This document shows positions 50,317-62,969 of a DNA stretch of 64,000 nt, in pieces. The stretch spans positions 62,001 to 126,000 of the forward strand of contig NZ_JAIELN010000007.1 of assembly GCF_019753045.1 (NCBI RefSeq), in the 5' to 3' direction. Below the pieces are notes generated by a model. The model saw only the letters and a list, made by a program, of their open reading frames with translations. It ran no database searches and was not told the DNA's origin. Position numbers and translations under genes: made by a program. Source of the DNA: Hyphomicrobium sp. GTDB lineage: Bacteria > Pseudomonadota > Alphaproteobacteria > Rhizobiales > Hyphomicrobiaceae. Every line of letters starts with the position of its first letter. Position 1 is the stretch's first letter.

Positions 50317-50394
50317 CGGAGCGTAGCGCAGCCTGGTTAGCGCACCAGTCTGGGGGACTGGGGGTCGGAGGTTCAAATCCTCTCGCTCCGACCA
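50317..50394 (+). tRNA. tRNA-Pro (GGG anticodon), phage integration target
   Basis: Acceptor stem CGGAGCG/CGCTCCG, D-arm (GCGC...GCGC), anticodon stem CCAGT/ACTGG with the loop CTGGGGG (T33, anticodon GGG), T-arm GGAGG-TTCAAAT-CCTCT, discriminator A and encoded CCA. The sequence is complete. It lies exactly at the border between host genes and phage genes, so the phage probably integrated at its 3' end and restored the gene. Confidence 0.95.
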
Positions 50395-50426
50395 ATCTAA
50401 AGCCCTGAAAAACAAGAAGAAAAGCC

Positions 50427-50918: not shown

Positions 50919-51105
50919 AGCCATCCCCTGAAAAGGGGATGATTGCCTGACGCAGGCACGAGGGGTTGCCAGGCCGAGCGAAATTAACGAGCCAGAAAGG
51001 TGCGGAGCGGGAAACCACTCCAGACAGAAATGGTGCGGCCGGGAAGCCTGCGCCACCGAAAAAGGCCTAGGCACGCCCTCAAGAGCGTGCAATTAATTGC
51101 AGTTG
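50919..51105 (+). ncRNA. Candidate structured RNA, no known family
   Basis: This 190-base gene-free stretch holds at least five local hairpins: a perfect 7-bp stem with a GAAA loop (50923-50940), GCCTG/CAGGC (50945-50957), GGAG...CTCC with an inner GAAA loop (51004-51021), GGTG...CACC (51032-51057) and GCACGC/GCGTGC (51071-51090). AGGCC near 50971 can also pair with GGCCT near 51064. Two GNRA loops and long-range pairing suggest a folded RNA. The last hairpin runs into the first palindrome. It resembles no ribozyme or riboswitch that I know. Confidence 0.45.
51088..51101. repeat. Phage palindrome copy 1 (TGCAATTAATTGCA)
   Basis: Perfect 14-bp palindrome, ending 17 bases before the start codon of the gene at 51119, whose ribosome site is GAGGGGGAG. 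Confidence 0.92.
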
Positions 51106-51118
51106 TAGAGGGGGAGTC

Positions 51119-51601
51119 ATGCTTGCGAACGAGACGCTTTTTGGTGAGAAACCGCAGCCTCCAGACGAAGGGCTTGCGAGCGAGCGGGTGAGGCTCGATC
51201 GTGTGCAGTACGCGGGGCAGTTCCGGGCGATATGGTCGTTGGCGCTACCGGGCCGGCATCCGGTCTGGGACGAGTATCTGATTTGCCTGTACGACTTACC
51301 CGCTTCGGGCGAGGTGCCCGTCATCAGATACAGGGAGGACGTAACGCACGAACTCATAGTCGTGGCCCTCGCGCCCGAGGTCAGGATCGACTTCGACCGG
51401 GACGTCTTTGCTCAGTCGCAGCTCATACCGCTCATGGGACCGAACCACGGCTATCAGTTCACGGCTGAGAGCGACGACGCAGCCCTTTCACGAGCCCGTG
51501 TCATCGTCTGCAGCGTGCTCGCTGGAACGCTGTCGCCCGAGGACGACGCCAGGGAGCGCTGGGACATGCTGTTCGACGACGGGGTACGGCTGGTCACTTA
51601 G
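51119..51601 (+). CDS. Phage hypothetical protein
   Basis: A 160-residue acidic protein without recognised domain. It contains long beta-type segments (YAGQFRAIWSLALPG, ELIVVALAPEVRIDF) and a C-terminal acidic helix (SPEDDARERWDML). Ribosome site GAGGGGGAG, 6 bases before the ATG. A palindrome stands in its leader and another behind its stop. Confidence 0.65.
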   Translation: MLANETLFGEKPQPPDEGLASERVRLDRVQYAGQFRAIWSLALPGRHPVWDEYLICLYDLPASGEVPVIRYREDVTHELIVVALAPEVRIDFDRDVFAQSQLIPLMGPNHGYQFTAESDDAALSRARVIVCSVLAGTLSPEDDARERWDMLFDDGVRLVT

Positions 51602-51646
51602 ACCAGCCACGTTAACCGCTCTCGGCGAATACCGTTGCCTAAGTAG

Positions 51647-51660
51647 TGCAATTAATTTCA
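51647..51660. repeat. Phage palindrome copy 2 (one mismatch)
   Basis: TGCAATTAATTTCA: the 14-bp element with one change in the right half. Lies 13 bases before the start codon at 51673. Confidence 0.85.
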
Positions 51661-51672
51661 CTGGAGGATAGG

Positions 51673-51912
51673 ATGGCTGCAAAGCCAACGAAGTTAGACA
51701 AGCTGCTCTTGAAGGTCATGCAGGAGCTAACGGAGGCGATGCCTGCCAACGGGTTCATCGTCGTCTCGATGGGCGAGAAGCACGGCAAAGACCATCTGCT
51801 GACGTACTCGAACCTGCCTGACGACGAGGTCCAGCACGTGGCGGCACTGATCCTAGACGTCGGGTCTGTACCCGAGGTGTCAGCTCCGAAGGACCGCAAG
51901 ATGCTGCATTAG
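51673..51912 (+). CDS. Small phage hypothetical protein
   Basis: A 79-residue protein (MAAKPTKLDKLLLKVMQELTEAM...). GGAGG at 51663-51667 marks the ATG at 51673; the frame is open to a TTG at 51646. No recognised domain. It ends 14 bases before thyX, with which it probably forms one transcript. Confidence 0.65.
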   Translation: MAAKPTKLDKLLLKVMQELTEAMPANGFIVVSMGEKHGKDHLLTYSNLPDDEVQHVAALILDVGSVPEVSAPKDRKMLH

Positions 51913-51926
51913 GAAAGGATGTTCCG

Positions 51927-52811
51927 ATGACGACGATTAGCGCCGAGACAATTCTGCGCTCCCGCAACCGCTCACGCCCCGACAAGGTGCTGACGACACT
52001 GCTGCTACGCTATCCGCGCTGGATACACGCTGAGTTCCTGACGCACCGAGCCTTCAGCCGGAACGCCGCGAGTTCCCGCGCAATACCGGTGGAGAAGATC
52101 ATCGCCGACATCATGGCAGATCCGGCAGTGCCGCTGTATTGGGGCAAGAACCAGAAAGGGATGCAGGCCTCTGAAGAATGCAACGCCGAAGTCTACGTCC
52201 CGGTGCTAGAGCCCAGGCACTCGGTTTATAACGTTCCCAAAATGAGCAATTCCGAGGCTTGGCTGGCAGCTCGTGATCTGGCCGTAGAAGCTGCTGAGGG
52301 GTTTGTCGCTGCCGGGTATCACAAGCAGATCGTGAACCGTCTTCTTGAGCCGTTTGCCCATATAACGACGCTGGTGTCTGCAACTGAATGGGACAACTTC
52401 CTGGAGCTGCGCGATCATGCTGCGGCCGAACCGCACTTCCAGATACTCGCCCAGGCGATCCGAAAATGTCTCGACCACGATGTGCAGGAGCTGTCGCCCG
52501 GTGATTACCATCTGCCGTTCGTCACGGCGGAAGCGCGTCTGGCTGCTGGCACGTCATGCACGGGTTTGCACGACCTGAAGGTCCTGTCCATCGCCCGATG
52601 TGCCTCGACCAGCTACAAGACGGTCGATGGCTTCGAGATGACGCAAGAGAAGGCGCAAGACATCTACGCCAAGCTCGTCGGATCGAGGCCAGTACACGCA
52701 TCGCCGTCCGAGCACGTGGCGTTCGCCGACTTCTGGGACGAAACAAGCTGGACGGGCCGCCAGCTCCACGGCAACTTCGTCGGCTTCTGCCAATCTCGAT
52801 TTGGGCTGTAG
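51927..52811 (+). CDS. thyX: Phage-borne flavin-dependent thymidylate synthase (ThyX-like)
   Basis: A 294-residue ThyX-family protein, expected to methylate dUMP to dTMP using methylenetetrahydrofolate and FAD. The signature RHRxxSxNxxSxR appears as THRAFSRNAASSR (about residues 37-49), so the first Arg is Thr; other nearby residues fit the FAD/dUMP site. Many tailed phages carry thyX to supply dTTP while copying DNA. The protein is longer than compact bacterial ThyX (about 220 residues). A ribosome site, AGGAAAGGA, precedes the ATG. Confidence 0.82.
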   Translation: MTTISAETILRSRNRSRPDKVLTTLLLRYPRWIHAEFLTHRAFSRNAASSRAIPVEKIIADIMADPAVPLYWGKNQKGMQASEECNAEVYVPVLEPRHSVYNVPKMSNSEAWLAARDLAVEAAEGFVAAGYHKQIVNRLLEPFAHITTLVSATEWDNFLELRDHAAAEPHFQILAQAIRKCLDHDVQELSPGDYHLPFVTAEARLAAGTSCTGLHDLKVLSIARCASTSYKTVDGFEMTQEKAQDIYAKLVGSRPVHASPSEHVAFADFWDETSWTGRQLHGNFVGFCQSRFGL

Positions 52812-52819
52812 ACAAGATG

Positions 52820-52833
52820 TGCAATTAATTGCA
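52820..52833. repeat. Phage palindrome copy 3
   Basis: Perfect TGCAATTAATTGCA, 8 bases after the thyX stop. It is followed by an isolated AAAGGAGGA and about 80 bases of leader before the acetyltransferase gene. Confidence 0.92.
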
Positions 52834-52839
52834 AAAGGA

Positions 52840-52915
52840 GGAGTCCTTGGACCGCTGACCCCCCGGTCCTAGTGTCGACAACGGCCGGCACCCAGCTGGC
52901 CGTAGGGGACCTTAC
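52840..52915 (+). promoter_or_regulatory. Structured leader before the acetyltransferase gene
   Basis: Two hairpins can form: GGACCG/CGGTCC (about 52848-52869) and CGGCC/GGCCG (about 52881-52901). An AAAGGAGGA ribosome-like site just upstream is not followed by a long open frame (only TTG-GAC-CGC-stop). A translation- or transcription-control leader is possible but unproven. Confidence 0.35.
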
Positions 52916-53338
52916 GTGAGCAAGATCGTCTACAACCGCAGTTGTGCGAATACCGATGCCTTCGCTTTGTTGGTCGAAGGCTGGAACGAACTCGTCCAGG
53001 ATGGCTTCACGCCGGATGGACTGGCTTCGCCACCGATCTCGGCAGAGAAGGAAGTCCTCTTTGCCGTCAGCAAGGAAGGCGACATCGTCGGCACGATCGC
53101 CTTCGACTACGTGGCCGGCCGCGACGCCCTCGTCATAGCGCTGGGCTACGTCGAGGCCTCAAGCCGCCGCAAGGGTGTCTTCACCGAGCTCTACGCCGCT
53201 CTCAAAGCCCGCGCGACCGAAGCCGGTGTCAAACGTATCCTGATCCCCGTCGCCCCGAACAACGCAGTAGCTCTCGCCGTCCTGGCGAAACTCGGTTCCG
53301 TTGCCGAGTCCGTGCTCTACGCGGCCGATACCGCTTAA
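52916..53338 (+). CDS. GNAT-family acetyltransferase
   Basis: A 140-residue GNAT-fold protein. The core reads DIVGTIAFDYVAGRDALVIALGYVEASSRRKGVFTELYAALKARATEAGVKRILIPVAPNNAVALAVLAKLGS, with the acetyl-CoA-binding segment near RRKGVFTELY (about residues 82-91). The usual glycine-rich RxGxG is RRKGVF here. GTG start with an AGGGGAC site. It probably forms an operon with the XRE gene 9 bases downstream. Target unknown. Confidence 0.82.
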   Translation: MSKIVYNRSCANTDAFALLVEGWNELVQDGFTPDGLASPPISAEKEVLFAVSKEGDIVGTIAFDYVAGRDALVIALGYVEASSRRKGVFTELYAALKARATEAGVKRILIPVAPNNAVALAVLAKLGSVAESVLYAADTA

Positions 53339-53347
53339 GGCCGACGC

Positions 53348-53644
53348 ATGGACAACTTCTGGGGACAGCTGGTCAAGAAACTCAGGGAGGAGCAAGGCGT
53401 CTCCCAACGAGTGCTCGCCAGCCGTACGGAGGTCGGCCGCTCGGCGTTGCGTCGGTTGGAAGCCGGCGGCGCTCCAGGCACGATCGACGTCATCGAACGC
53501 CTGCTCGATTACCTCGGCTACGAACTCGAAGCCATCAAGCGCGAAGACCACGCCACGGCCCTGAAGGATCAGGCCCAGGCGGAGGCAGACACGAAGCGCC
53601 GTTCCCGTATTGCCCTGAACCGGATACTGGCAATTTCACTTTAA
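53348..53644 (+). CDS. XRE-family helix-turn-helix regulator
   Basis: A 98-residue DNA-binding protein. The HTH at about residues 6-60 reads LVKKLREEQGVSQRVLASRTEVGRSALRRLEAGGAPGTIDVIERLLDYLGYELE, and a basic tail (KRRSRIALNRI) follows. It resembles antitoxin-like and small repressor-like XRE proteins. It is the only DNA-binding regulator I see in the phage part of the window and therefore a candidate to bind the palindromes. Confidence 0.85.
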   Translation: MDNFWGQLVKKLREEQGVSQRVLASRTEVGRSALRRLEAGGAPGTIDVIERLLDYLGYELEAIKREDHATALKDQAQAEADTKRRSRIALNRILAISL

Positions 53645-53648
53645 TCAG

Positions 53649-53662
53649 TGCAATCAATTGCA
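53649..53662. repeat. Phage palindrome copy 4 (one mismatch)
   Basis: TGCAATCAATTGCA: one change in the left half. It begins 4 bases after the XRE gene stop and 55 bases before the next start codon. Confidence 0.85.
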
Positions 53663-53716
53663 CCTCGCCGCCACTCCGTTAGAGTGTTCTGAAGTCCACG
53701 GAACAAGGAGTGACAG

Positions 53717-54142
53717 GTGGAGCAGCTAGAAGCCCTTAAGCTCGTTAGGGCGATGGCCCAGCAGTACATGCTGAAGGCCGATGACTACAGCTCGCTCGGC
53801 GTCGAAGCCGTCGCAGAGGTTACTAAGCTTATCAAGGAGACAGAGGAGGCCGCCGAGGACCCGATCAAGCACGGCTTGGATTTCCTCGAGACGCACGGCC
53901 TGTTCGTCTACGGCACGCTGCATTCTGAGAGCGTCATAGACAACGCCGACTTTTTGGTCGCTGACGATCACCCGTTACACGCCATCGACGAGAAGCAGAA
54001 GGCGGCGCTGATACCGGCGATCATGGAGCTTTGCAACGTCAAGGGCGACTTGATCGACCTCGATATCGTCTATGGCGAGTTCAGGGACATGGTCACGGAG
54101 CAGCTGATTAAAAACATGGATGATGGAGTGCTGAAAGTATGA
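53717..54142 (+). CDS. Phage hypothetical protein
   Basis: A 141-residue acidic helical protein (EQLEALKLVRAMAQQYMLK..., HGLDFLETHGLFVYGTL, IVYGEFRDMVTEQLIKN). GTG start with an AAGGAG ribosome site. Its stop overlaps the RapZ-like ATG (ATGA), so the two are coupled. No family recognised. Confidence 0.65.
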   Translation: MEQLEALKLVRAMAQQYMLKADDYSSLGVEAVAEVTKLIKETEEAAEDPIKHGLDFLETHGLFVYGTLHSESVIDNADFLVADDHPLHAIDEKQKAALIPAIMELCNVKGDLIDLDIVYGEFRDMVTEQLIKNMDDGVLKV

Positions 54143-54471
54143 AGATCGTATCGTTTGGCTACCGCCGCGGCTTGCCGCTCGGCGACATGGACCGGATTTT
54201 CGACTGCCGCGTGATGCGGAACCCGCACAACGACCCGAAGCTCCGCGACCAGTCAGGGCTCGATGGCGAAGTCCAAGGCTTCGTTGCGCAAGATCCGCAC
54301 TGCATCCCGATGCGTGACCTCGCAGTCGAAGCCGTGAAGAACGGCGCGCAAACGATCGCGTTCGGATGCTACGGCGGACGTCACCGCTCGGTCGCAATGG
54401 CAGAGCTCGTTGCCGACCAGCTGCGCGGCCGTAACCTTGATGTCGAAGTCGAGCATCGAGACCTCGAATAG
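54139..54471 (+). CDS. Stand-alone RapZ C-terminal-like protein
   Basis: A 110-residue protein that matches the C-terminal domain of RapZ (YvcJ) without the N-terminal P-loop domain. It keeps the sequence order: SFGYRRGLPL, DMDRIFDCRVMRNPHNDPKLRDQSGLD, FVAQDP and IAFGCYGGRHRSVAMAELVADQL, then EVEHRDLE. In RapZ this domain binds sRNA and the metabolite GlcN6P and controls glmS. A free phage copy could bind RNA or a small ligand and hijack host regulation, but that is an inference. Confidence 0.8.
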   Translation: MKIVSFGYRRGLPLGDMDRIFDCRVMRNPHNDPKLRDQSGLDGEVQGFVAQDPHCIPMRDLAVEAVKNGAQTIAFGCYGGRHRSVAMAELVADQLRGRNLDVEVEHRDLE

Positions 54472-54495
54472 GCGTTGCCTTCGCCTGGCAGTTAG

Positions 54496-54509
54496 TGCAA
54501 TTAATTGCA
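54496..54509. repeat. Phage palindrome copy 5
   Basis: Perfect TGCAATTAATTGCA, 24 bases after the RapZ-like stop and 18 bases before the aminotransferase start. Confidence 0.92.
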
Positions 54510-54527
54510 CTTCTGCTAGGAGGGTGC

Positions 54528-55412
54528 ATGTCGTTGCCGTTTGCTCGACCGGATATCGGAGACGATGAAGTCGAGGCTGTTGTTGAGTGCATGAAGTCCG
54601 GCTGGCTAACCAGCGGCTCGAAAGTCCAGGAATTTGAGGCGAAGTTCGCGGCCTTCACGGGCGCTAAGCACGCAATCGCCGTATCGAGTGCCACCGTCGG
54701 CGCTCTGCTGATCCTCGACGCCTTGGGGATCGGATTAGGCGACGAGGTCATCGTCCCGGCCATGACGTTCTCAGGCCCCGCCATGATGGCGCACAGGCTC
54801 GGTGCCAACGTCGTCCTCGCAGACTGCTTACCCGGCAGCCACCAGCTCGATCCCGCAGATGTTGCCCGCAAGATCACGCCCCGCACCAAGGTCGTCATGC
54901 CCACGCACTTCGCAGGCGAGGCGTGCGATCTCGAGGCGCTGCAATCGCTGTGCGCCACGCACGGGGTGCTACTGATTGACGACGCAGCCCACGCTCTTCC
55001 GACCGTCGACAAGTCCGGCGATCGCGTCGGCTCCGGTGCATCGTCGCTCGCCACGTTTTTCTCGTTCTACGCCACGAAGACGCTGACGACCGGCGACGGC
55101 GGCATGATCACGACCAATGAAGACTGGCTCGCCGAGCGTATTCGCCCGCTCCGCAGCCACGGCATGAGCCGGCCGGTGTTCGACCGCTACTCGCGCCTCG
55201 GCGCTTCCTGGCAGTACGACATTGAGCTACACGATGCTGAAGCTGCCCGACGCTCACACGCCTTATGGCGTTCCGCGCTGGGTCAGCCAGCTCCCGTCCG
55301 TACTCGGCTCCCGCAAGGCCGAGGAGTTCAACATGGAGTTCTTCGACAACGGCGGCATCCCGCCGGTTCTGATCACGCTGCAAGGCGGCACGCTGCAGGA
55401 GCAGACCCGTAA
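54528..55412 (+). pseudogene. DegT/DnrJ/EryC1-type aminotransferase, 3' part lost to a fusion
   Basis: The first 230 residues match PLP-dependent sugar aminotransferases: an N-terminal segment (LPFARPDIGDDEVEAVVECMKSGWLTSGSKVQEFE), LIDDAAHALP, SFYATKTLTTGDGGMITTNE with the PLP Lys in ATKTL, then RSHGMSR. The match stops near 55220 (SWQYDIEL). From there the frame runs as an unrelated Arg/Pro-rich tail to a stop at 55412, because the DNA has switched to the portal gene in another frame. The C-terminal substrate-binding half is absent, so it cannot be a complete enzyme. Ribosome site AGGAGGG is intact. Confidence 0.85.
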
Positions 55413-56349
55413 GGCGCTCGAGCAGAAGATGACGGGTGGCGCTTCCAAGCAGAACCGGGTGCAGATCCTCGAAGTCGAACCGTCCGGCGGCTCGATGGAG
55501 CATCCGACGCAAGCGCGTGTCACGGTTGAACGCTTCGGCGGCGATCGCCAGAACGACTCCATGTTCGAAGGCTACGACGACAAGTGCGAGAACCGCGTCC
55601 GTCGCGCGTTCCGCTTGGCACCGATCTTCCTCGGTATGTCGGAAGATTACTCGTTCGCCTCGGCTTACGTCAGCTACACGGTCACAGAGGCTCAGGTGTT
55701 CAAGCCCGAGCGCGATGAGTTCGACGAGGTCATCAACAACAATCTTATCGTCGTTATGGGTTTCAGCGACTACAAGATGACGTCGAAGCCGCTCGTGATC
55801 GAAGACGTCAATCTGAAGCTCGAAGGCCTGCAGGTCGCTATCGGCACGAACCGCGTCGACATGGCCGACGTGATCTACGAGCTGAACGAAGCAACCGGCC
55901 TCAGCCTCAAAGTCACCGAAGAACCGGAGCCGCCGGCAGTACCGTCCGGCCTTGAGTCGACGCACACGGTCGACAATGCGGGCAATCTCGTACCGATAAA
56001 GCCGGTGCACGTCGAAGCGCCCAGTAACACGAACGCTCCTGGCGGAATGCCGACGGGCTCCTCGAGCAAGGTCAGCTCAAGCACGACCACGACCAAGTCG
56101 GACCAGCCGCTTGGCGTCCTAGCGCTTGCCAAGGACACGCTGACGTCTCTGCGCGAACGCGATTTCGGCCAGCTGACGAAGAACCTCGTGCTTATCAAGT
56201 CGCTCGATCCGCGCGGCTTGAGTGCTTTCCATATAGCCTGCGCCGAGCTGCAGTTCGTCAATCCCGCACACGATGTCGAAGGGCTCGGAGAGCTCGCCGG
56301 CTGCACGATCGCCGTCATGAGCAAGAGCTGCGGCTGCGACGCCCACTGA
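55222..56349 (+). CDS. Phage portal protein, N-terminally truncated
   Basis: Residues match the C-terminal two-thirds of PBSX-type portal proteins: YGVPRWVSQLPSVLGSRKAEEFN at the start, LITLQGGTLQ, and RRAFRLAPIFLGMSEDYSFASAYVSYTVTEAQVF. Portal proteins form the 12-fold ring through which DNA enters the capsid and normally carry 150-200 more residues before this point. Those are missing at the junction with the aminotransferase gene. The listed TTG start (55222) is arbitrary; no ribosome site is visible. The tail (residues 240-340) is Ser/Thr-rich. Confidence 0.85.
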   Translation: MSYTMLKLPDAHTPYGVPRWVSQLPSVLGSRKAEEFNMEFFDNGGIPPVLITLQGGTLQEQTRKALEQKMTGGASKQNRVQILEVEPSGGSMEHPTQARVTVERFGGDRQNDSMFEGYDDKCENRVRRAFRLAPIFLGMSEDYSFASAYVSYTVTEAQVFKPERDEFDEVINNNLIVVMGFSDYKMTSKPLVIEDVNLKLEGLQVAIGTNRVDMADVIYELNEATGLSLKVTEEPEPPAVPSGLESTHTVDNAGNLVPIKPVHVEAPSNTNAPGGMPTGSSSKVSSSTTTTKSDQPLGVLALAKDTLTSLRERDFGQLTKNLVLIKSLDPRGLSAFHIACAELQFVNPAHDVEGLGELAGCTIAVMSKSCGCDAH

Positions 56350-56357
56350 GGTGATGA

Positions 56358-57461
56358 ATGCCGTCTATGAGAGCCTACCTGTCGCTCGAAGCATCCGTCG
56401 CCTCGACGATGCACAGCGAATGGCGTAAGTCCGCCGAAACGCTCATGGAACAGATGCACCCGCTTGTGGAGACGGGGAAGTTCGATGAGGCACACGCAGC
56501 CGTCGATCGTATGTCGATGCGTGGTGTCGTCCAAAAGTCGCGGAACCGGCTTGAAGAGCTCGGCACCAGCGCGCTGCTTTTCGGAGCCCACAACGCTGCC
56601 GGCAAACTTTCAGAGACGCAGTACCTGAAGGGCGAACCGATCCCGCACGCTCTGCAGGATGCCTGCACGCAGCTTGCCGTCATGATCGAGGACAACGGTG
56701 GAGAGTTCATTCGCAAGGCGCTCCATGAACTAATCCGGGACGAAGAGCTTGCCGCCAAGGCCGAGCTGCATAAGGGCGACGAAGTCCATGTGCAGAAAGC
56801 CGCCACCAAGACGCTTTCCGAGCGCCTGAATGACGCCGTGCTCGGTACAGGCAGGGCCGTTATCGATGTCGGTGCCAACCTGACGACGAGCCGGCTTGTG
56901 ACGTTCGGCTTCCTGGCTGAAGCTCAGTCACGCTCGATCACGTCGTACCAGATCTCCGAGGAGCTGGACGATAAGACCTGCCCTGTATGCGAGTACATGC
57001 ACGGCAAGACGTTCGACGTTGCCCAGGAGTATTCCCGGGTTCTTTCAGCGCTCACGACGCAAGACCCGAAGGAACTCCGGTCGACCGCACCGTGGCCGAG
57101 CCAGACGAGGGCTGGGCTAGCCAGCTTGAACGGAATGAGTAACGAGGAGCTGCAGGCGAATGGCTACGGCTCGCCGCCGTTTCACCCGTTGTGCCGTGGC
57201 AGCCTCGTCAATGTCGGCACGGTTGAGGAAACGATACCGCTCGGCCGTATGGAGCTGCCGTCCGCACCGGTTTACGTGCCTCCGACGCCAGAACCGGAAC
57301 TAATGCCGGCCATCTTGCCGTCGAAGCCGTTGCACCTTTTGGACCTGATCAACGATCTGCGCGATCAGGCGGCGCGGGAAAAGGCGCTTCTAGCCTGGTC
57401 CGACAACGATTTGGATCTCGTCGAGAAGATCCTGCGCGAGGCAAAGCTGCTGTCAAACTGA
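56358..57461 (+). CDS. MuF-like phage head morphogenesis protein
   Basis: A 367-residue minor head protein. The N-terminal half is helical; the C-terminal part contains DDKTCPVCEYMHGKTFDVAQEYS and GYGSPPFHPLCRGSLV, in which paired cysteines and a His-Pro segment are typical of MuF domains (PF04233 type). Such proteins sit next to portal genes and are ejected with DNA or help to organise the portal. Ribosome site GAGGTGAT. Confidence 0.82.
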   Translation: MPSMRAYLSLEASVASTMHSEWRKSAETLMEQMHPLVETGKFDEAHAAVDRMSMRGVVQKSRNRLEELGTSALLFGAHNAAGKLSETQYLKGEPIPHALQDACTQLAVMIEDNGGEFIRKALHELIRDEELAAKAELHKGDEVHVQKAATKTLSERLNDAVLGTGRAVIDVGANLTTSRLVTFGFLAEAQSRSITSYQISEELDDKTCPVCEYMHGKTFDVAQEYSRVLSALTTQDPKELRSTAPWPSQTRAGLASLNGMSNEELQANGYGSPPFHPLCRGSLVNVGTVEETIPLGRMELPSAPVYVPPTPEPELMPAILPSKPLHLLDLINDLRDQAAREKALLAWSDNDLDLVEKILREAKLLSN

Positions 57462-57488
57462 CGTGGGTCGCTAACGGCCCGCCGTTTG

Positions 57489-57502
57489 TGCAATTAATTG
57501 CA
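57489..57502. repeat. Phage palindrome copy 6
   Basis: Perfect TGCAATTAATTGCA, 27 bases after the MuF-like stop and 62 bases before the likely protease start. Confidence 0.92.
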
Positions 57503-57564
57503 AATGCTCAGAACGCATGGGATACGTCCGGCGTGACATTCGTCATGAATGGGGGCGGAGAAGC

Positions 57565-58239
57565 GTGCTCGCTAAGACTGCTAGTAACGGTGGCGTCGCT
57601 GGTTATGCCGGCAAGTCAACGGTTTCGGCTGTCCAAGAGAGCAACACATCCGTCACCATTAAGAAGTTGGACGAGGAACAGCAGCTCGTTTTCGGAGAAG
57701 TCTACGCTCCCGGTTTCCCTGACAGTCAGGGCGACTTCATGAGTGTCGAGACGATCCAGAACATGGCTCACGAGTTTCTGCGCAAGGGCCGGGTCGCCAA
57801 TATCGACCTGAACCACAACCAGGAACTTAGCGGCTGCTACGTCGTCGAAAGCTTCATCGCACGTGACGATGACAAGACCTTCATTCCGGGAAGCTGGGTG
57901 CTGGGAGTCAAAATCCCCGATCCCGAGATCTGGAACTTGGTCAAGTCCGGAGAGCTCAACGGGTTCTCGCTCGACGGCGCGGCGGTGCAAGTCCCCACGG
58001 TACTCGAGATCGAGATGCCCCAGGTGCTGACGGGCAAGACCGAAGAGAACGACGGTCACAGTCACACGTTCGAAGTCCGGTTCGACAACGAAGGAAACTT
58101 CCTTGGCGGCACGACCAGTCCCGGTCCGGACGGGCACGTACACAAGATTGCTCGCGGCACGATCACTGAGAAGAGCAGCGGGCATGACCACAGGTTCTCG
58201 TTCGTGGAAGGCATCCTGAATGTCCAAGCATCAAATTGA
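57565..58239 (+). CDS. Phage prohead protease-like protein (XkdF type)
   Basis: A 224-residue protein with QQLVFGEVYAPGFPDSQGDFMSVETIQNMAHEFL and DLNHNQELSGCYVVES, then GSWVLGVKIPDPEIWNLVKSGELNGFSLDGAAV: the core of XkdF/prohead protease proteins, with the His-containing HNQE segment as the probable catalytic region. The last third holds HSHT and GHDHRFSF His-rich motifs. I prefer GTG 57565, which has a GGGGGCGGAG ribosome site; the frame is open to an ATG at 57517. It overlaps the next gene by 20 bases. Confidence 0.8.
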   Translation: MLAKTASNGGVAGYAGKSTVSAVQESNTSVTIKKLDEEQQLVFGEVYAPGFPDSQGDFMSVETIQNMAHEFLRKGRVANIDLNHNQELSGCYVVESFIARDDDKTFIPGSWVLGVKIPDPEIWNLVKSGELNGFSLDGAAVQVPTVLEIEMPQVLTGKTEENDGHSHTFEVRFDNEGNFLGGTTSPGPDGHVHKIARGTITEKSSGHDHRFSFVEGILNVQASN

Positions 58240-59515
58240 AGCGAACGAGCTACTCGGCGCGGACGTGAATTTCGTTTCGCTGGTCAAGCGGGGCGCCAAT
58301 CGCATCCCGTTTCGGATTACAAAAGAGGACGGTAACATGATCGACCTGCACAAGATCGGCCGGGGTTTCTTCAAGAAGGCCGACCCTAAGCCAGAGATCG
58401 TCGCCGCCATCGTGCAGAAGGGAGCCGACCTTGCAAAGGTTGCCGCGATCTTCGCCGCTGCCGGTCTCGAGCTCAAAGATTTCGCCAAGTCCGAAAAGGA
58501 CGGCATCGTTTCGTTTGCCAAGGCTGACGCAGAGTCGGCCGAAGGTGCAGCTCTCCTGAAGGTTTCCGAAGAAGTCGGTCTCCTGGTGAGCGGTTTGAAG
58601 AAGGCGTTCGGCACTGATTACGACTCGACGTCGTTCAGTGAGCGCGTTGCGACCGAAGGGTTTTACTCGTCGGCTTGCGTCGCGGTCGACGTGCTCAAGT
58701 CGGTTGTCAGCAACATCCTGTACGAGGCGGAAAGCTCCGCGGACGCTGCCGCAGACGTCGGCTCGGCCGTCGATGAATTGAAAACGTATCTGGTCGCTCT
58801 GACCAACGGTCTCCCAGTCCAAGCCTTCAAAGCCGATGTCGAGGTCTCTCGCGCAGGCTCGCTAGCTAAAGCAGACGCATCGGCCTCTGAAGCCGCAGAA
58901 CTTGAAAATGCGGAAGTTTCAAAGACTGAGCGCGACGCCGAGAAAGTGTCAGTCTCGGAGCCGGCCAAGAAGGGTGAGTCAGTATCGGAAAATCCGGTCG
59001 CTGGCAGCACGACTACCGACACCAGTCTCGGCACGAAGCGCCCCGACAACAATATCGACGAAGACCCGGCTGAGGGCAATGCCACACCGCCGGCTTCCGG
59101 CGGCAAGTCGAACGTTGGTGAGAAATCTCCATCGAACGACGTGGAAGGAAACCCCGCCGTTACGAAGTCTTCCGAAACAGACAAGGACAAGGACCAAGAG
59201 CTTGACGACAGCAAGAGCGGTGCCGGCGCAGAAGATCGCGGCCCGAAAGCTCCTGCAGTCAAGACCGACGAAAGCAAAGTGCTCGAGGCAATCGCAGCAC
59301 TGCGCAAGTCGGTGGACGAAGCCATTGCTGCCGTCAAGCAAGACGTCGCAGCGGTGAGCGACCGAGTCGATCAGGTGGCCGTCCAGGCCAAGAAGACCGA
59401 CGAGGCACTGCACGGCACTGTGTTCAACGAAACTGTTGGAGACGCGGCTAACGTCAAGAAGGCCGACGCACCCATCCCGCTCTTGGACACGGCGTATTCT
59501 CGCAGAACCGCTTAA
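58220..59515 (+). CDS. Phage head scaffold-like protein, XkdF C-terminal-like
   Basis: A 431-residue protein, overlapping the protease gene. It starts EANELLGADVNFVSLVKRGANRIPFRITK, a signature seen next to phage proteases, and then consists of Ala/Glu/Lys-rich helical segments with a disordered Ser/Pro/Asp linker (about residues 220-345) and a coiled-coil end (EAIAALRKSVDEAIAAVKQDV, about residues 355-400). Position between protease and capsid genes fits a scaffold. Function inferred from context. Confidence 0.65.
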   Translation: MSKHQIEANELLGADVNFVSLVKRGANRIPFRITKEDGNMIDLHKIGRGFFKKADPKPEIVAAIVQKGADLAKVAAIFAAAGLELKDFAKSEKDGIVSFAKADAESAEGAALLKVSEEVGLLVSGLKKAFGTDYDSTSFSERVATEGFYSSACVAVDVLKSVVSNILYEAESSADAAADVGSAVDELKTYLVALTNGLPVQAFKADVEVSRAGSLAKADASASEAAELENAEVSKTERDAEKVSVSEPAKKGESVSENPVAGSTTTDTSLGTKRPDNNIDEDPAEGNATPPASGGKSNVGEKSPSNDVEGNPAVTKSSETDKDKDQELDDSKSGAGAEDRGPKAPAVKTDESKVLEAIAALRKSVDEAIAAVKQDVAAVSDRVDQVAVQAKKTDEALHGTVFNETVGDAANVKKADAPIPLLDTAYSRRTA

Positions 59516-59551
59516 TGCGGAGGCGTATTTAACCTCAAAGGGGAAGCATAG

Positions 59552-60526
59552 ATGTCTTCAAACTCCAGTCTCCTCCGCAAGGCGGACCTCGCAATCGAGG
59601 ACTTGCGGGCTGATGGCGGCGAACTCCTGCCCGAGCAGGGCGCGTCGTTCATCCGCAAGCTCATCAAGCAGCCGACGCTCGTTCGCGTCTGCCGCGTCGT
59701 TGAGATGACGGCTCCGAAGCGTAAGATCAACAAGATCGGCTTCGGCTCGCGCATCTTGCGCAAAGCTACTTCGGCAGTTCCTCTGACCGAAGCGCAGCGC
59801 GCGAAGCCGACGACCGAACAGATCGAGCTCGACGTCAAAGAGCAGATCGCGGAAGTCCGCATCCCGTACGACGTTATGGAAGACAACATCGAGCGCGCTG
59901 CTGCAGCGAACAACGAGTCGTCTAACACCGGTCCGTCGGGCCTCCGTCAGACGATCATCGACCTGATCGCCGAACGCGCCGCGCTCGACATCGAAGAGCT
60001 CGCGCTCCTCGCAGACAAGAACTACACGTCGTCCAACGCGGACGACCAGGCGTACCTCGCTCAGCTCGACGGCTGGCTCAAGCGTACCGACGCTGACGGC
60101 AACGTTGTCGACGCCGAAGGAGAGTCGATCTCCAAGGCGATCTTCAAACAGGGCCTGAAGACGTTGCCGTCGCAGTACCAGCGGAACAAGGCTGCTATCC
60201 GTCACTTCGTCTCGGTCAACAACGAGACTGAGTACCGCGATACGCTCGCTGACCGCGGCACCGCACTCGGCGATCAGATGACCCAGGGCACGTCTCCGAC
60301 GTTCGCCTACGGTTCTCCGATCGAGGGCGTCGCTATGATGCCGGAAGACAAGGGCCTGTACACCGACCCGCTGAACCTGATCTTCGGCATTCAGCGCCAG
60401 GTGTCGATGGAGTTCGACAAGGACATCACGTCCCGCGTCTACATCATCGTGTTGACGACCCGTATCGACTTCCAGATCGAAGAGACGGAAGCGATCGTCG
60501 AATACACGAACATCGGCACGGTCTGA
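59552..60526 (+). CDS. Phage major capsid protein
   Basis: A 324-residue protein. Place after the protease and scaffold-like genes, length, and an HK97-type pattern (an N-terminal helical segment, then VPYD-type strand IPYDVMEDNIERAA, long central domain and C-terminal DITSRVYIIVLTTRIDFQIEETEAIVEY) make it the best candidate for the main shell protein. Ribosome site AAAGGGGAAG precedes the ATG. Sequence similarity could be checked against XkdG and other capsid families. Confidence 0.78.
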   Translation: MSSNSSLLRKADLAIEDLRADGGELLPEQGASFIRKLIKQPTLVRVCRVVEMTAPKRKINKIGFGSRILRKATSAVPLTEAQRAKPTTEQIELDVKEQIAEVRIPYDVMEDNIERAAAANNESSNTGPSGLRQTIIDLIAERAALDIEELALLADKNYTSSNADDQAYLAQLDGWLKRTDADGNVVDAEGESISKAIFKQGLKTLPSQYQRNKAAIRHFVSVNNETEYRDTLADRGTALGDQMTQGTSPTFAYGSPIEGVAMMPEDKGLYTDPLNLIFGIQRQVSMEFDKDITSRVYIIVLTTRIDFQIEETEAIVEYTNIGTV

Positions 60527-60546
60527 TCTTAGCGGTCTGACGATTG

Positions 60547-60560
60547 TGCAATTAATTGCA
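60547..60560. repeat. Phage palindrome copy 7
   Basis: Perfect TGCAATTAATTGCA, 20 bases after the capsid stop and directly before an intrinsic terminator. Confidence 0.92.
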
Positions 60561-60598
60561 ACAAGGCCCGGGGTCATGTACTCTGGGCCTTGTTTTTT
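60560..60598 (+). terminator. Intrinsic terminator after the capsid gene
   Basis: CAAGGCCC at 60562-60569 pairs with GGGCCTTG at 60585-60592, followed by six T. It directly follows palindrome copy 7 and precedes the ribosome site of the next gene, so it can stop or attenuate transcripts between cassettes. Confidence 0.88.
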
Positions 60599-60609
60599 GG
60601 AGGTGTAGG

Positions 60610-61146
60610 ATGCCAACGATTGAACTGAAGAAGCATCGGCGTTTGAACGTCGGTGGCCAGATTTACGAAAAAGGCAGGGAGCTCGAGGTCGACGACGATA
60701 CGGCTGAGCTGTTCTCACACGACGACCGCTTCAAGGTGAGCGGCTACGGCGACGAGACCCCGAAGCCAGTCAGGGTTCCGCCGAAGTCTATGAACGTCAA
60801 GATCAGAGAAGCGGCAGACTCGCTCGACGTAGATGTGGAGAAGAACTTCACGGACTACGGCTCTCCGTCCGCCGACGCGATCTCGGAAGTCCTCCGCCAG
60901 AAGGTCGTGCAGGCCGACGTCGACCGCGCCCTCGGCATCAAGGCTCCGAAGGCGCCCGCCAAGGTCGAAGAGAAAAAGACCGACGAGAAGAAGGTCGAAG
61001 AGAAGAAGCCCGGCGTCGTCATCAAGCACAAGAAGGCTGAAGAGCCGAAGCCCGCTGAGACGCTCACCAACGGTGTTCCTGGTGTCCAGGCCTCGGCCGG
61101 CGCCGACGTCAAGGACCCGACCACCGAAGGCGCTATGGAGGCTTAA
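60610..61146 (+). CDS. Phage hypothetical structural protein
   Basis: A 178-residue protein. The first 60 residues look like a small beta domain (IELKKHRRLNVGGQIYEKGRELEVDDDTAELF); the end is a Lys/Glu/Pro-rich tail with repeated KKxEEKK units (about residues 122-140). Relatives between capsid and connector genes are often head-completion or decoration proteins, but I cannot tell. Ribosome site GGAGGTG precedes the ATG at 60610. Confidence 0.6.
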   Translation: MPTIELKKHRRLNVGGQIYEKGRELEVDDDTAELFSHDDRFKVSGYGDETPKPVRVPPKSMNVKIREAADSLDVDVEKNFTDYGSPSADAISEVLRQKVVQADVDRALGIKAPKAPAKVEEKKTDEKKVEEKKPGVVIKHKKAEEPKPAETLTNGVPGVQASAGADVKDPTTEGAMEA

Positions 61147-61149
61147 GCC

Positions 61150-61728
61150 ATGCTGCTGACTTCCGTTCAAACGATCCGCGAAGAAATCGGTTTCGACGAC
61201 ATGAAGGACATCAACGCCGCCATTACGATGGCGTTGAATGCTGCCGAGACGCTAATCGCCTCAACTCTTCGTACGACGTTTGAACGGAAGACAGTCACCG
61301 ACCGCTTCTGGGTGCCGGAGCCGAGCTTCGTGCAAGGCGCGCACCGGCGGACCGAGTTTCTGCTGAGTGCCGGCTTCATCGCCGATACGCCCGCCATCAC
61401 CGGCGGCCCAGCCAACATGCTCCTCGACAAGGAGAAGGGCATAGCCCGGGATTTTTCGACGTTCTACGTCCAGCAGATCGTGGAGTTCACGTACACCTGC
61501 GGGTTTGAGAAGTCCGACGAACAGAACGGCGAAGAGGCAGACACGTATAAGGACGTTCCGGCCTGGCTGCAGCAAGCGGCGAAGCTGAAGACGCTGCTCC
61601 TCGTCGCCAAGCTGCCCGCGGTAACGGAAGCCGGTATCAGCCTCGAGACCAACCTGCTCGACCAGCAGTACGCCTCGCTGATCAACTCGCACATCCGATA
61701 CGCACCCGCCGCAATTCTGCCGATCTGA
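61150..61728 (+). CDS. Phage head-tail connector protein
   Basis: A 192-residue, mostly helical protein of the gp6-like head-tail connector type: INAAITMALNAAETLIASTLRTTFE at the N-terminus and VPAWLQQAAKLKTLLLVAKLP in the middle. It follows the capsid genes and precedes a gp10-like gene, the usual connector position. Function inferred from context and helical pattern. Confidence 0.68.
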   Translation: MLLTSVQTIREEIGFDDMKDINAAITMALNAAETLIASTLRTTFERKTVTDRFWVPEPSFVQGAHRRTEFLLSAGFIADTPAITGGPANMLLDKEKGIARDFSTFYVQQIVEFTYTCGFEKSDEQNGEEADTYKDVPAWLQQAAKLKTLLLVAKLPAVTEAGISLETNLLDQQYASLINSHIRYAPAAILPI

Positions 61729-61735
61729 GGCCGAC

Positions 61736-62389
61736 GTGGCGACAGACATCAGTTTCCAACTCGAGTTCCGCAACAAGCGTTTCAACGCGGCGTCGAAGGG
61801 GCTCGCGGCTTTCGCCAAGGAGCTGAGCGCCAGCTGGGATGGCTCGGCGCAGGTGCTGAGCTCGGAACTCAAGGACTTCCTGCAGTCGGTCGCTCAGGCG
61901 CTGGCCGACCGTCACAGCAGCCCCTGGCCGGGCGGCACCGGCAAGCAGACGCTCTCTAGGCGGTCCGGCAACTTGACGGCCTCGATCCTCGGCTCCGTCC
62001 GCGTCGAAGGTACGGCGTGGGCCAATATCGAAGGCCACATAGCCGCCGCATTCCCGGGTGTCGTCCACGAGTACGGCGCAACGATCCGCCCGAAGTCGGC
62101 GAAGTTCCTGACCGTCCCTCTGCCTGCCGCTCTCGATGGACGCGGCGTACCCCTGAAACGCTCGGCCCGCGATTGGCAGCACACGTTCGTCGCCAAGAGC
62201 CGTGCCGGCAACCTGATCATTTTCCAGAGGCGGGGCTCGTCGGTAGTCCCGCTTTACGTGCTGAAGACCGAGGTCAAGATCCCGCCACGGCTCGGCATGC
62301 GGACGACGCTCGACGCGGGCATCCCGTATTTCGTTGACCGCGCTGCAGACCAAGTAGTGAAGGCGATGCTCAAAGGAGCGAGCGCATGA
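61736..62389 (+). CDS. HK97 gp10-like phage morphogenesis protein
   Basis: A 217-residue protein that resembles HK97 gp10/virion morphogenesis proteins: LKDFLQSVAQALADRHSSPWPGGTG, SGNLTASILGSVRVEGTAWANIEGHIAAAFPGVVHEYGATIRP. GTG start. It overlaps the next gene (ATGA), which is typical of head-tail joining clusters. Confidence 0.72.
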   Translation: MATDISFQLEFRNKRFNAASKGLAAFAKELSASWDGSAQVLSSELKDFLQSVAQALADRHSSPWPGGTGKQTLSRRSGNLTASILGSVRVEGTAWANIEGHIAAAFPGVVHEYGATIRPKSAKFLTVPLPAALDGRGVPLKRSARDWQHTFVAKSRAGNLIIFQRRGSSVVPLYVLKTEVKIPPRLGMRTTLDAGIPYFVDRAADQVVKAMLKGASA

Positions 62390-62901
62390 CGACGATGACC
62401 GGCGACAGCATCAGGCTGCGCATACTGAACGCTATCAAGGACGCCGCCAAGGCGATCGATGTGCCGGACACGACCGATCCGAATTACGTGGCAGGTCCGG
62501 CGGACTGGCCGTTGAAGTTCTCGACCGTGGCGCTCGGTCCGCTGGGAGACGAGGACAACCGCAAGCGCTACTCGCTCGGCATCGTGCCGGGACCTGAGAA
62601 GCACTCGCACCTGTTCCCGTTCATCGTCTGCGATCAGCAGATCGGCCTCGAGTTCCGGGCGACGAAGAACAAGGGCGACGACGATCCGCTGGTCATGGCT
62701 GAGCACCTGATGACAGTCGTCAAGCGCCTCGCCCTGAAGGACAAGCAGTGGACCGGTCTCGCGATCGACACGGAGCTCGTCAACAACGAGATCGACCTCG
62801 TGAGTTTCGGGGACCGCTCGATCGTCGGCGTGCTTTTCATCGTGGTCAAATACCGCCACTCGCAGTTCGATCCGAGAGATCCAGACGCCAGCATAATCTG
62901 A
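62386..62901 (+). CDS. Phage tail terminator/completion-like protein
   Basis: A 171-residue alpha-beta protein (SIRLRILNAIKDAAKAID, FPFIVCDQQIGLEFRAT, SIVGVLFIVVKYRHSQFDP). Position and pattern fit tail terminator or tail-completion proteins that cap the tail tube. Assignment is from context; no diagnostic motif. Confidence 0.62.
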   Translation: MTTMTGDSIRLRILNAIKDAAKAIDVPDTTDPNYVAGPADWPLKFSTVALGPLGDEDNRKRYSLGIVPGPEKHSHLFPFIVCDQQIGLEFRATKNKGDDDPLVMAEHLMTVVKRLALKDKQWTGLAIDTELVNNEIDLVSFGDRSIVGVLFIVVKYRHSQFDPRDPDASII

Positions 62902-62955
62902 GCTGGGCCGATTACGCACCGGACGCCGTGACTTTCGTTGCGCTGTATGTGCATT

Positions 62956-62969
62956 TGCAATTAATTGCA
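62956..62969. repeat. Phage palindrome copy 8
   Basis: Perfect TGCAATTAATTGCA, with a T before and AT after extending the match to TTGCAATTAATTGCAA. It lies 26 bases before the start codon of the next gene. Confidence 0.92.

Follow-up and report, generated by a model that had tools for sequence, protein, structure and literature searches.

A dispersed TGCAA-N4-TTGCA palindrome in a Hyphomicrobium prophage and its relatives, a putative operator of a ruvC-linked phage protein

The stretch of DNA analysed here (the window) comprises 64,000 nucleotides of Hyphomicrobium sp. (contig NZ_JAIELN010000007.1, hereafter C4, positions 62001-126000), and its end lies within a prophage that carries a short repeated palindrome, TGCAATTAATTGCA. 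A scan of the window that allowed up to two mismatches identified eight matches to this 14-bp element, of which six are perfect and two have one mismatch; 0.11 are expected (100 dinucleotide shuffles, largest count 1). These are the same eight copies that a preliminary description, made from the sequence alone, had reported. Positions 1-51087 of the window contain no match at up to two mismatches, as that description had claimed for the host DNA. All eight copies are inside gaps between genes predicted with our own gene caller. The copies, and a hairpin beside one of them, are as follows:

51088..51101, unstranded, perfect palindrome copy (TGCAATTAATTGCA), the next gene starting 17 nt downstream
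51647..51660, unstranded, palindrome copy with one mismatch, from the window scan
52820..52833, unstranded, perfect palindrome copy directly 3' of a ThyX-type (Thy1) gene
53649..53662, unstranded, palindrome copy with one mismatch and centre TCAA, from the window scan
54496..54509, unstranded, perfect palindrome copy, from the window scan
57489..57502, unstranded, perfect palindrome copy upstream of a capsid protease family gene
60547..60560, unstranded, perfect palindrome copy with a terminator-like hairpin immediately 3'
60561..60593, plus strand, terminator-like hairpin followed by a T run, from RNA fold prediction
62956..62969, unstranded, perfect palindrome copy, from the window scan

The terminator previously said to abut the copy at 60547 is borne out as a predicted hairpin (fold of 60545-60602, -27.7 kcal/mol, z -4.7, with a U run behind it). 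A simple terminator scan misses it because that scan takes loops of 3-8 only.

The genome (4.52 Mb in 35 contigs) contains 36 positions with at most one mismatch (26 perfect, 10 with one mismatch), and a reversed-sequence control gave none. All 36 are on C4, at 113088-169761 and 229437-263542, within the prophage, and the genome outside it has no copy at this threshold. Given where the window ends on C4, the majority of copies lie beyond it. A 49-bp exact repeat joins the 3' part of the gene for tRNA-Pro(ggg) (window 50350) to C4:265518, so the prophage is about 153 kb long, and all palindrome copies of the genome fall between the two repeats. Its boundaries are marked by these features:

50350..50398, plus strand, left attachment core, the 49-bp exact repeat in the 3' part of the tRNA-Pro(ggg) gene
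C4:265518-265566, outside the window, right attachment copy beside the integrase gene
C4:264295-265476, phage-integrase gene adjoining the right attachment copy

The prophage is related to DLP5 (Delepquintavirus) and RcZahn. The major capsid protein is 75% identical to that of the Rhodobacter phage RcZahn, 64% to that of Rhizobium phage RHph_Y1_11 and 58% to that of Stenotrophomonas phage DLP5. Capsid, tail, recombination and replication core genes occur in the order common to DLP5-like phages, with some core genes missing here.

Perfect copies occur in seven of the 100 genomes searched, this genome included, and none were found with the control sequence. A prophage of the same genus (G003) has 28; five further genomes of the genus (G014, G016, G017, G018, G019) have one or two each. 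The preliminary description had proposed a search of the whole prophage and of related phages, and this recovered both the 36 positions and a half-site that recurs across 14 phages: this prophage, G003, DLP5, DLP3, RcZahn, Y1_11 and eight IMG/VR contigs. G106, G108, RcZahn and Y1_11 were used to base 100,000 only, and G102, G105 and G107 are contigs shorter than complete phages. The element is TGCAA-N4-TTGCA, with a half-site common to phages of Alpha- and Gammaproteobacteria and four central bases specific to the phage. Exact-stem copies number 29 in this prophage, 30 in G003, 31 each in DLP5 and DLP3, 9 in RcZahn, 15 in Y1_11, 26 in G102, 15 in G104, 19 in G106, 21 in G111, 27 in G103, 2 in G108, 21 in G107 and 32 in G105. 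The centre is TTAA in 26/29 copies here, 27/30 in G003, 26/26 in G102, 25/27 in G103 and 22/32 in G105; CTAG in 14/15 in G104; TCAA or its reverse in 26/31 in DLP5 and 24/31 in DLP3; and CAAA in 7/15 in Y1_11 and 9/21 in G111. RcZahn has TCAA and TTAA, G107 has TTAA and TTGA, and G106 is mixed. G108 carries an asymmetric form with a single strong half, TAATTGCAC.

The stem extends to distant phages, again with centres that differ: V-YDF132 has 12 exact copies in 44 kb (all TTAA), RcTiptonus 17 in 50 kb (14 with TCGA), JP1 16 in 50 kb (10 ACGT and 5 ACAT), SM1 13 in 45 kb (GCGT, ACGC, GCGC) and L338C 23 in 45 kb (C-NN-G). In the 41 kb of SIO-2, only 2 copies are exact and 13 have one mismatch in the stem. 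By eye, three copies in RcZahn (L066, near 32723, 33894 and 34623) are each followed by a GGAGGTGTTTTT-like stretch, forming a longer repeated cassette.

Placement relative to genes was counted with sites from weight matrices and with genes from our own caller, using only C4:112.9-170 kb of this prophage. Where co-directional genes are separated by 80-120 nt, the gap holds a copy in 66/76 cases in the five TTAA phages (10/13, 13/14, 16/17, 17/20 and 10/12 per phage) and in 39/113 in the other nine phages. Summed over the 14 phages, only one of 842 gaps shorter than 20 nt has a copy. Two placements stand out, one 10-20 nt 5' of a start codon and the other right behind a stop codon, 50-90 nt before the next start. 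All 14 phages have a site in the 250 nt that precede the capsid protease family gene. The preliminary description placed every copy between genes and at cassette borders. The former is true of the window but not beyond it, where 5/29 exact-stem copies of this prophage lie fully in genes; the latter fits part of the copies but not DLP5 and DLP3, in each of which 22/31 exact-stem copies are inside genes, in both orientations. Asymmetric centres show an orientation bias of 53:24 between genes and 47:24 within them. Selection on copies inside genes is evident in the ParBc-like gene, whose protein tracks the centre. In the cluster of ParBc-like genes, a (V/L)Q-x-(I/M)A or similar stretch is found in seven of 11 proteins and not in the other four; a copy encodes it in six of the seven (RcZahn has no copy there), and residue x is Ser, Leu or Gln where the centre of the phage is TCA, TTA or CAA.

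A promoter link is visible at a subset of copies. The -10-like sequence TANNNT begins exactly 30 nt past the copy at 22 of 404 intergenic sites, against 2.3 (largest 6 in 200) when the 60 nt behind each copy are shuffled. Other offsets have 0-4 occurrences, except for 11 at -9 (inside the copy), 9 at +17, 7 at both +7 and -19, and 5 at both +4 and +18. Among 83 sigma-70-like promoters near a copy, the -35 box is at +7 or +8 in 17, five of them in the AT-rich G107; the groups at -16/-15 (22) and at -9 to -4 (12) arise at least partly because the copy itself contains TTGCA. Thus, some copies, though a minority, have their centre near -50 relative to a predicted sigma-70-like promoter, with the -35 box 8 nt past the copy. 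In the main part of this prophage the spacing occurs at 1/31 intergenic sites, and the eight window copies all lack a sigma-70-like promoter at the distance found in related phages. The promoter role proposed earlier is supported for some copies.

The protein encoded directly after ruvC is the candidate binder:

C4:158575-159690, outside the window, gene of the candidate binder directly after ruvC, 371 aa, phrog_17202 (unknown function)

All 14 phages share fourteen protein families, in a comparison that covered proteins of at least 35 aa outside an inserted 80 kb. Most are virion proteins or DNA enzymes, and the main unknown ones are the product of the gene after ruvC, a protein of 110 aa and the product of a gene ahead of the capsid gene. 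Searches with the ruvC-linked protein (tblastn) identified 45 phage records, from phages of Vibrio, Rhizobium, Stenotrophomonas, Rhodobacter and Aeromonas. Diverged forms follow ruvC in RcTiptonus, JP1, SM1 and L338C (recognised by eye and later aligned), and a first structural model of the protein matches an SM1 protein in Foldseek (E 1e-5). When viral contigs were scanned with this family alone, exact-stem copies, one or more, occurred at 28 of the 34 loci recovered; 59 permuted stems, the stem of L140 (4 copies there) among them, averaged 0 to 0.08 per locus. Two or more copies at up to one mismatch were found at 31/34 loci, compared with 0 to 8 loci for eight permuted stems. The 34 loci include near-duplicates (L127/L128, L136/L137, and L146/L152 of one contig). 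The same scan of bacterial genomes gave eight loci, five with an exact-stem copy; two of the eight (L191, L192) are weak partial matches, and L190 was examined for such a motif and has none.

Some loci have a different stem. L136 and L137 repeat GCACTTAAGTGC instead of the TGCAA form, as does L189 from the bacterial genomes, and L140 repeats TGACATTAATGTCA. L189 is 62% identical to L136, so the GCACTTAAGTGC loci count as one switch, not two. The proteins of L136, L137 and L189 have other residues in a predicted helix-turn-helix (HTH) stretch (GLG[LF]RKA, IYT), and these loci possibly represent a natural switch of specificity.

The candidate gene itself often has a copy at its promoter. Of 42 upstream regions, 29 contain a copy no more than 260 nt away, with at most one mismatch in the stem (L136 and L140, included in the 29, were scanned with their own switched stems). 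Gene starts at viral loci were taken as the first ATG or GTG of the frame. L120, L121, L123-L126, L130, L148 and L150, regarded as lying on contigs or phages already in the count, were left out of the 42, as were L128, L137 and L152; the contig of L121 (G100) is thereby absent from the count. In 18/42 regions a copy with up to two mismatches is followed after 5-12 nt by a promoter, under a rule that admits -10 boxes with 3/6 matches (GAGACT and GATACT among the 18 are weak). Offsets of 13-20, 21-28 and 29-36 nt gave 6, 1 and 2, and shuffled sequence 2.0 (largest 6). The distance is exactly 8 nt in 13 of the 18, of which G102 and G103 take their -35 bases from a second copy. The layout is copy-8-TTGACA-17-TAGATT in L338C and copy-8-TTGACA-17-TATAAT in L149, and in L140 the switched palindrome (one mismatch) is 8 nt 5' of TTGACA. 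This prophage and G003 have copies before the gene without the 8-nt spacing; here, TTGCAA of the copy itself is 16 nt 5' of TAGGAT.

The ruvC-linked protein is predicted to consist of an N-terminal part that is variable, of low complexity and in DLP5 some 100 residues shorter, and of a helical domain resembling the parS/NBS-binding domains of ParB, Spo0J and Noc. Among the matches listed, ParB/Spo0J/Noc DNA-binding domains come nearest to its predicted fold, and Raf1 follows closely. At the level of sequence profiles no link to ParB was detected (hhalign probability 0.7 against 30 ParB proteins, controls 0-1.0), Pfam yielded no ParB match to the candidate, and neither the 371-aa nor a 267-aa protein has a Pfam ParBc match for a CTP-binding domain at E up to 0.1. 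A copy lies in the upstream region of 13/14 members of the ruvC-linked family, 14/14 protease genes and 11/11 genes of a tail-region family. The equal regularity of the latter two means that a copy alone is no marker of a regulator gene. Two further families considered as binders have a copy upstream in 8% (replication initiator O-like) and 56% (AAA ATPase) of their members. The phrog_17202 protein, the best candidate and the most likely binder, occurs together with the motif in distant phages too, and its own promoter often has a copy. A host factor is unlikely in this role: the half-site spans phages of Alpha- and Gammaproteobacteria, and the host has no copy outside the prophage (up to one mismatch).

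The motif, its distribution and conservation, the phage-specific centre, the promoter spacing and the co-occurrence with the candidate protein were all computed directly. By analogy, we read them as a dispersed, KorB/OB-like repressor system, for which we infer binding, dimer formation, repression, silencing and immunity. Our preferred explanation, which we consider somewhat better than an even bet, is that a single dimeric DNA-binding protein of the phage, likely the ruvC-linked one, uses the copies as dispersed operators and represses promoters; the operator system would be conserved across a supergroup of large siphophages. The earlier suggestion of a DNA-binding protein acting at many sites is consistent with this insofar as the element looks operator-like and phage-specific, would suit a symmetric binder and reaches some promoters. 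Bound 8 bp upstream of a -35 box (centre near -50), the protein would repress that promoter, and its own gene would be among those controlled; where the copy stands in an operon gap or within a gene, the protein may block or coat the DNA and so keep the prophage silent. Phages with the same central bases would share immunity. The protein perhaps also aids inheritance of the extrachromosomal prophages of the group, a role made possible by the life of DLP5 as a phagemid, described in part of its announcement (PMC5834331). Repression is favoured over activation because consensus -35 boxes stand behind several copies. Weighing against this explanation, the signal at +30 comes mainly from three phages (8 sites in G103, 6 in G102, 5 in G107), with one site each in this prophage, DLP3 and G105, and none in the other eight.

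Several known systems have a comparable layout, as described in the parts of the cited papers that we consulted. KorB of plasmid RK2 is a ParB-type protein with an OB operator that immediately precedes the -35 box of the korA promoter, and OB-proximal sites are 4-10 bp upstream of promoters, with others far away (PMC11790492). Similarly, a copy here ends 8 bp before the -35 box and another stands ahead of the candidate's own gene, so that two KorB/OB-like traits, an operator a few bp upstream of -35 and a copy at the regulator's own promoter, are present if the candidate is the regulator. Unlike KorB/OB, the carrier is a phage and not a plasmid, the site is the 14-bp TGCAA-N4-TTGCA rather than a 16-bp OB, no CTP-binding domain was recognised in the candidate and no KorA partner is known. 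Noc/NBS of Bacillus and ParB/parS share sites scattered over the genome (Noc: PMC4331003) and specificity switches by a few bases (PMC7383237), and the fold of the DNA-binding domain may be similar; they differ in the lack of a sequence-profile match, in the site sequence, and in that the present system is phage-borne and promoter-linked. The likeness to stoperators and to SPbeta repeats noted in the preliminary description is apt in layout. L5-like mycobacteriophages have more than 20 stoperators per genome, at promoters and in short intergenic spaces, for one repressor, but these are 13-bp, asymmetric, oriented with transcription and bound by a monomer (PMC9283540), whereas centres of the TTAA phages are mostly symmetric. 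Strict L5-like orientation is ruled out, as the asymmetric centres are merely biased. The SPbeta element is likewise intergenic, in a large temperate phage and at promoters, and was later shown to be the site of the master repressor MrpR (PMC10516654). Its motif is 15 bp and MrpR is tyrosine-recombinase-like; we saw no similarity, though not in a direct comparison of fold and motif, and the candidate model is all-helical with structural matches to other folds.

Among the rival explanations, the copies may be activator sites, from which a bound protein recruits RNA polymerase at about -50. Ogr/Delta-type late activators of P2-like phages act from about -55. The fixed distance between copy and promoter, the copy upstream of every protease gene and the encoded zinc-ribbon proteins with NrdR-type and weak Ogr-type matches all suit such a role. 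However, TTGACA, a consensus -35 that as a rule works without an activator, is found in eight of the 18 candidate-gene promoters, many copies are followed by no promoter, and the zinc-ribbon protein of this prophage is outside all 57 families common to at least seven of the 14 phages; we therefore consider activation unlikely. (Separately, for the phage proteins at L012:14680-14964, 95 residues, and L066:26724-26936, 71 residues, an NrdR-type zinc ribbon is the only family to exceed its Pfam cut-off.) Slightly less probable again is a centromere-like array of the Noc/ParB type that serves to condense, segregate or mark the phage genome and has no direct control over transcription. The predicted fold of the candidate and the genic copies of DLP5 and DLP3 in both orientations argue for it, as do, from parts of the papers, replication of the DLP5 prophage as a phagemid (PMC5834331) and the description of VHS1 as extra-chromosomal (PMC3148565). 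It accounts poorly for the promoter spacing, the copy before the candidate's own gene and the preference of copies in most phages for gaps before genes, and the present prophage is integrated.

The preliminary description had named an XRE protein of the window as a possible binder:

53348..53644, plus strand, XRE (HTH_3 / HTH_31) protein, not supported as the binder

Fourteen-base palindromes are typical of XRE repressors and this protein has a clear HTH, yet its family was found in only 8/14 motif-bearing phages and a copy precedes just 12% of family members. No ortholog was found in DLP5 and DLP3, which are whole records, in G106 and G108 (100,000 bases each) or in G105 and G107 (incomplete contigs). 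We regard it, or another HTH protein outside the ruvC-linked gene, as a very improbable binder. A GNAT acetyltransferase gene precedes the XRE gene (the two together span window 52916-53644), and both families also adjoin in G003 and RcZahn. An RNA element, in the form of short hairpins that govern processing, termination or translation at the ends of messages, would suit copies behind stop codons and ahead of start codons, and the copy at 60547 that adjoins a hairpin. It too is very unlikely: two tested copies without a terminator have ordinary fold energies (z -0.3, -0.9), genic copies occur in both orientations, and copies 5' of a -35 box are outside the transcript of that promoter. Least probable of all are recombination linkers that mark gene cassettes and aid modular exchange. 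The copies of the TTAA phages between genes, and the near absence of copies from gaps shorter than 20 nt across the 14 phages, are what linkers would give, but the centre changes phage by phage, the distance to promoters is set, and at genic copies the protein sequence tracks the centre.

Beyond the preferred explanation of dispersed operators for a repressor, a wider reading is tentative and, in our view, rather doubtful. DLP5-, RcZahn-, V-YDF132-, RcTiptonus-, JP1-, SM1- and L338C-like phages may form a siphophage supergroup with one ancient operator system, in which a stand-alone ParB/Noc-type protein would bind tens of palindromes, their half-site nearly constant and their centre free to vary. 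The centre would be an immunity code, and the protein would silence promoters and help to keep the extrachromosomal prophage. This would be a split ParB, with the ParBc-like gene upstream of terL supplying the nucleotide-binding half. The group includes temperate phages of clinical and environmental bacteria. If the operator explanation is true, one protein and one kind of site would explain a control circuit, four bases would predict shared immunity, and dozens of naturally diverged protein-site pairs would become available for studies of DNA-binding specificity, beside the ParB/Noc pair.

An earlier description of the element was not found in the abstracts and passages searched (subscription papers and supplements were outside the scope), where the 12-mer string occurs once, in a Salmonella Typhi paper. 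The words 'palindrom' and 'promoter' are absent from the main texts of the DLP3, Rhodobacter, R21Y, LV6, Virtus and UF_RH6 papers, and the first half of the DLP5 announcement (PMC5834331) does not mention such an element. Annotated transcriptional regulator and repressor genes are described in the DLP3 (PMC7326821) and DLP5 (PMC5834331) papers, the consulted parts of which contain no test of one.

The prophage is predicted to be defective. A DegT-type aminotransferase gene runs into a start-less portal gene at about window 55230 (C4:117230, placed by eye), and about 22 kb found between these genes in the G003 prophage are gone, including the terL, DNA polymerase and PPDK families, which are present in the 13 other compared phages and missing here. 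This loss is either a deletion or an assembly error. At a second gap (C4:151186-151930), this prophage lacks, relative to G003, the DnaB helicase family with its neighbours and the beginning of the primase gene. About 80 kb are inserted at C4 ~170-251 kb, separating two genes that in G003 have 5 kb between them. Judged by their translations, genes of the insert resemble ones for metal transport and resistance, for mobile elements and for defence. A lone perfect copy of the palindrome lies within the insert (C4:229437, outside the window), where it overlaps the end of a called open reading frame.

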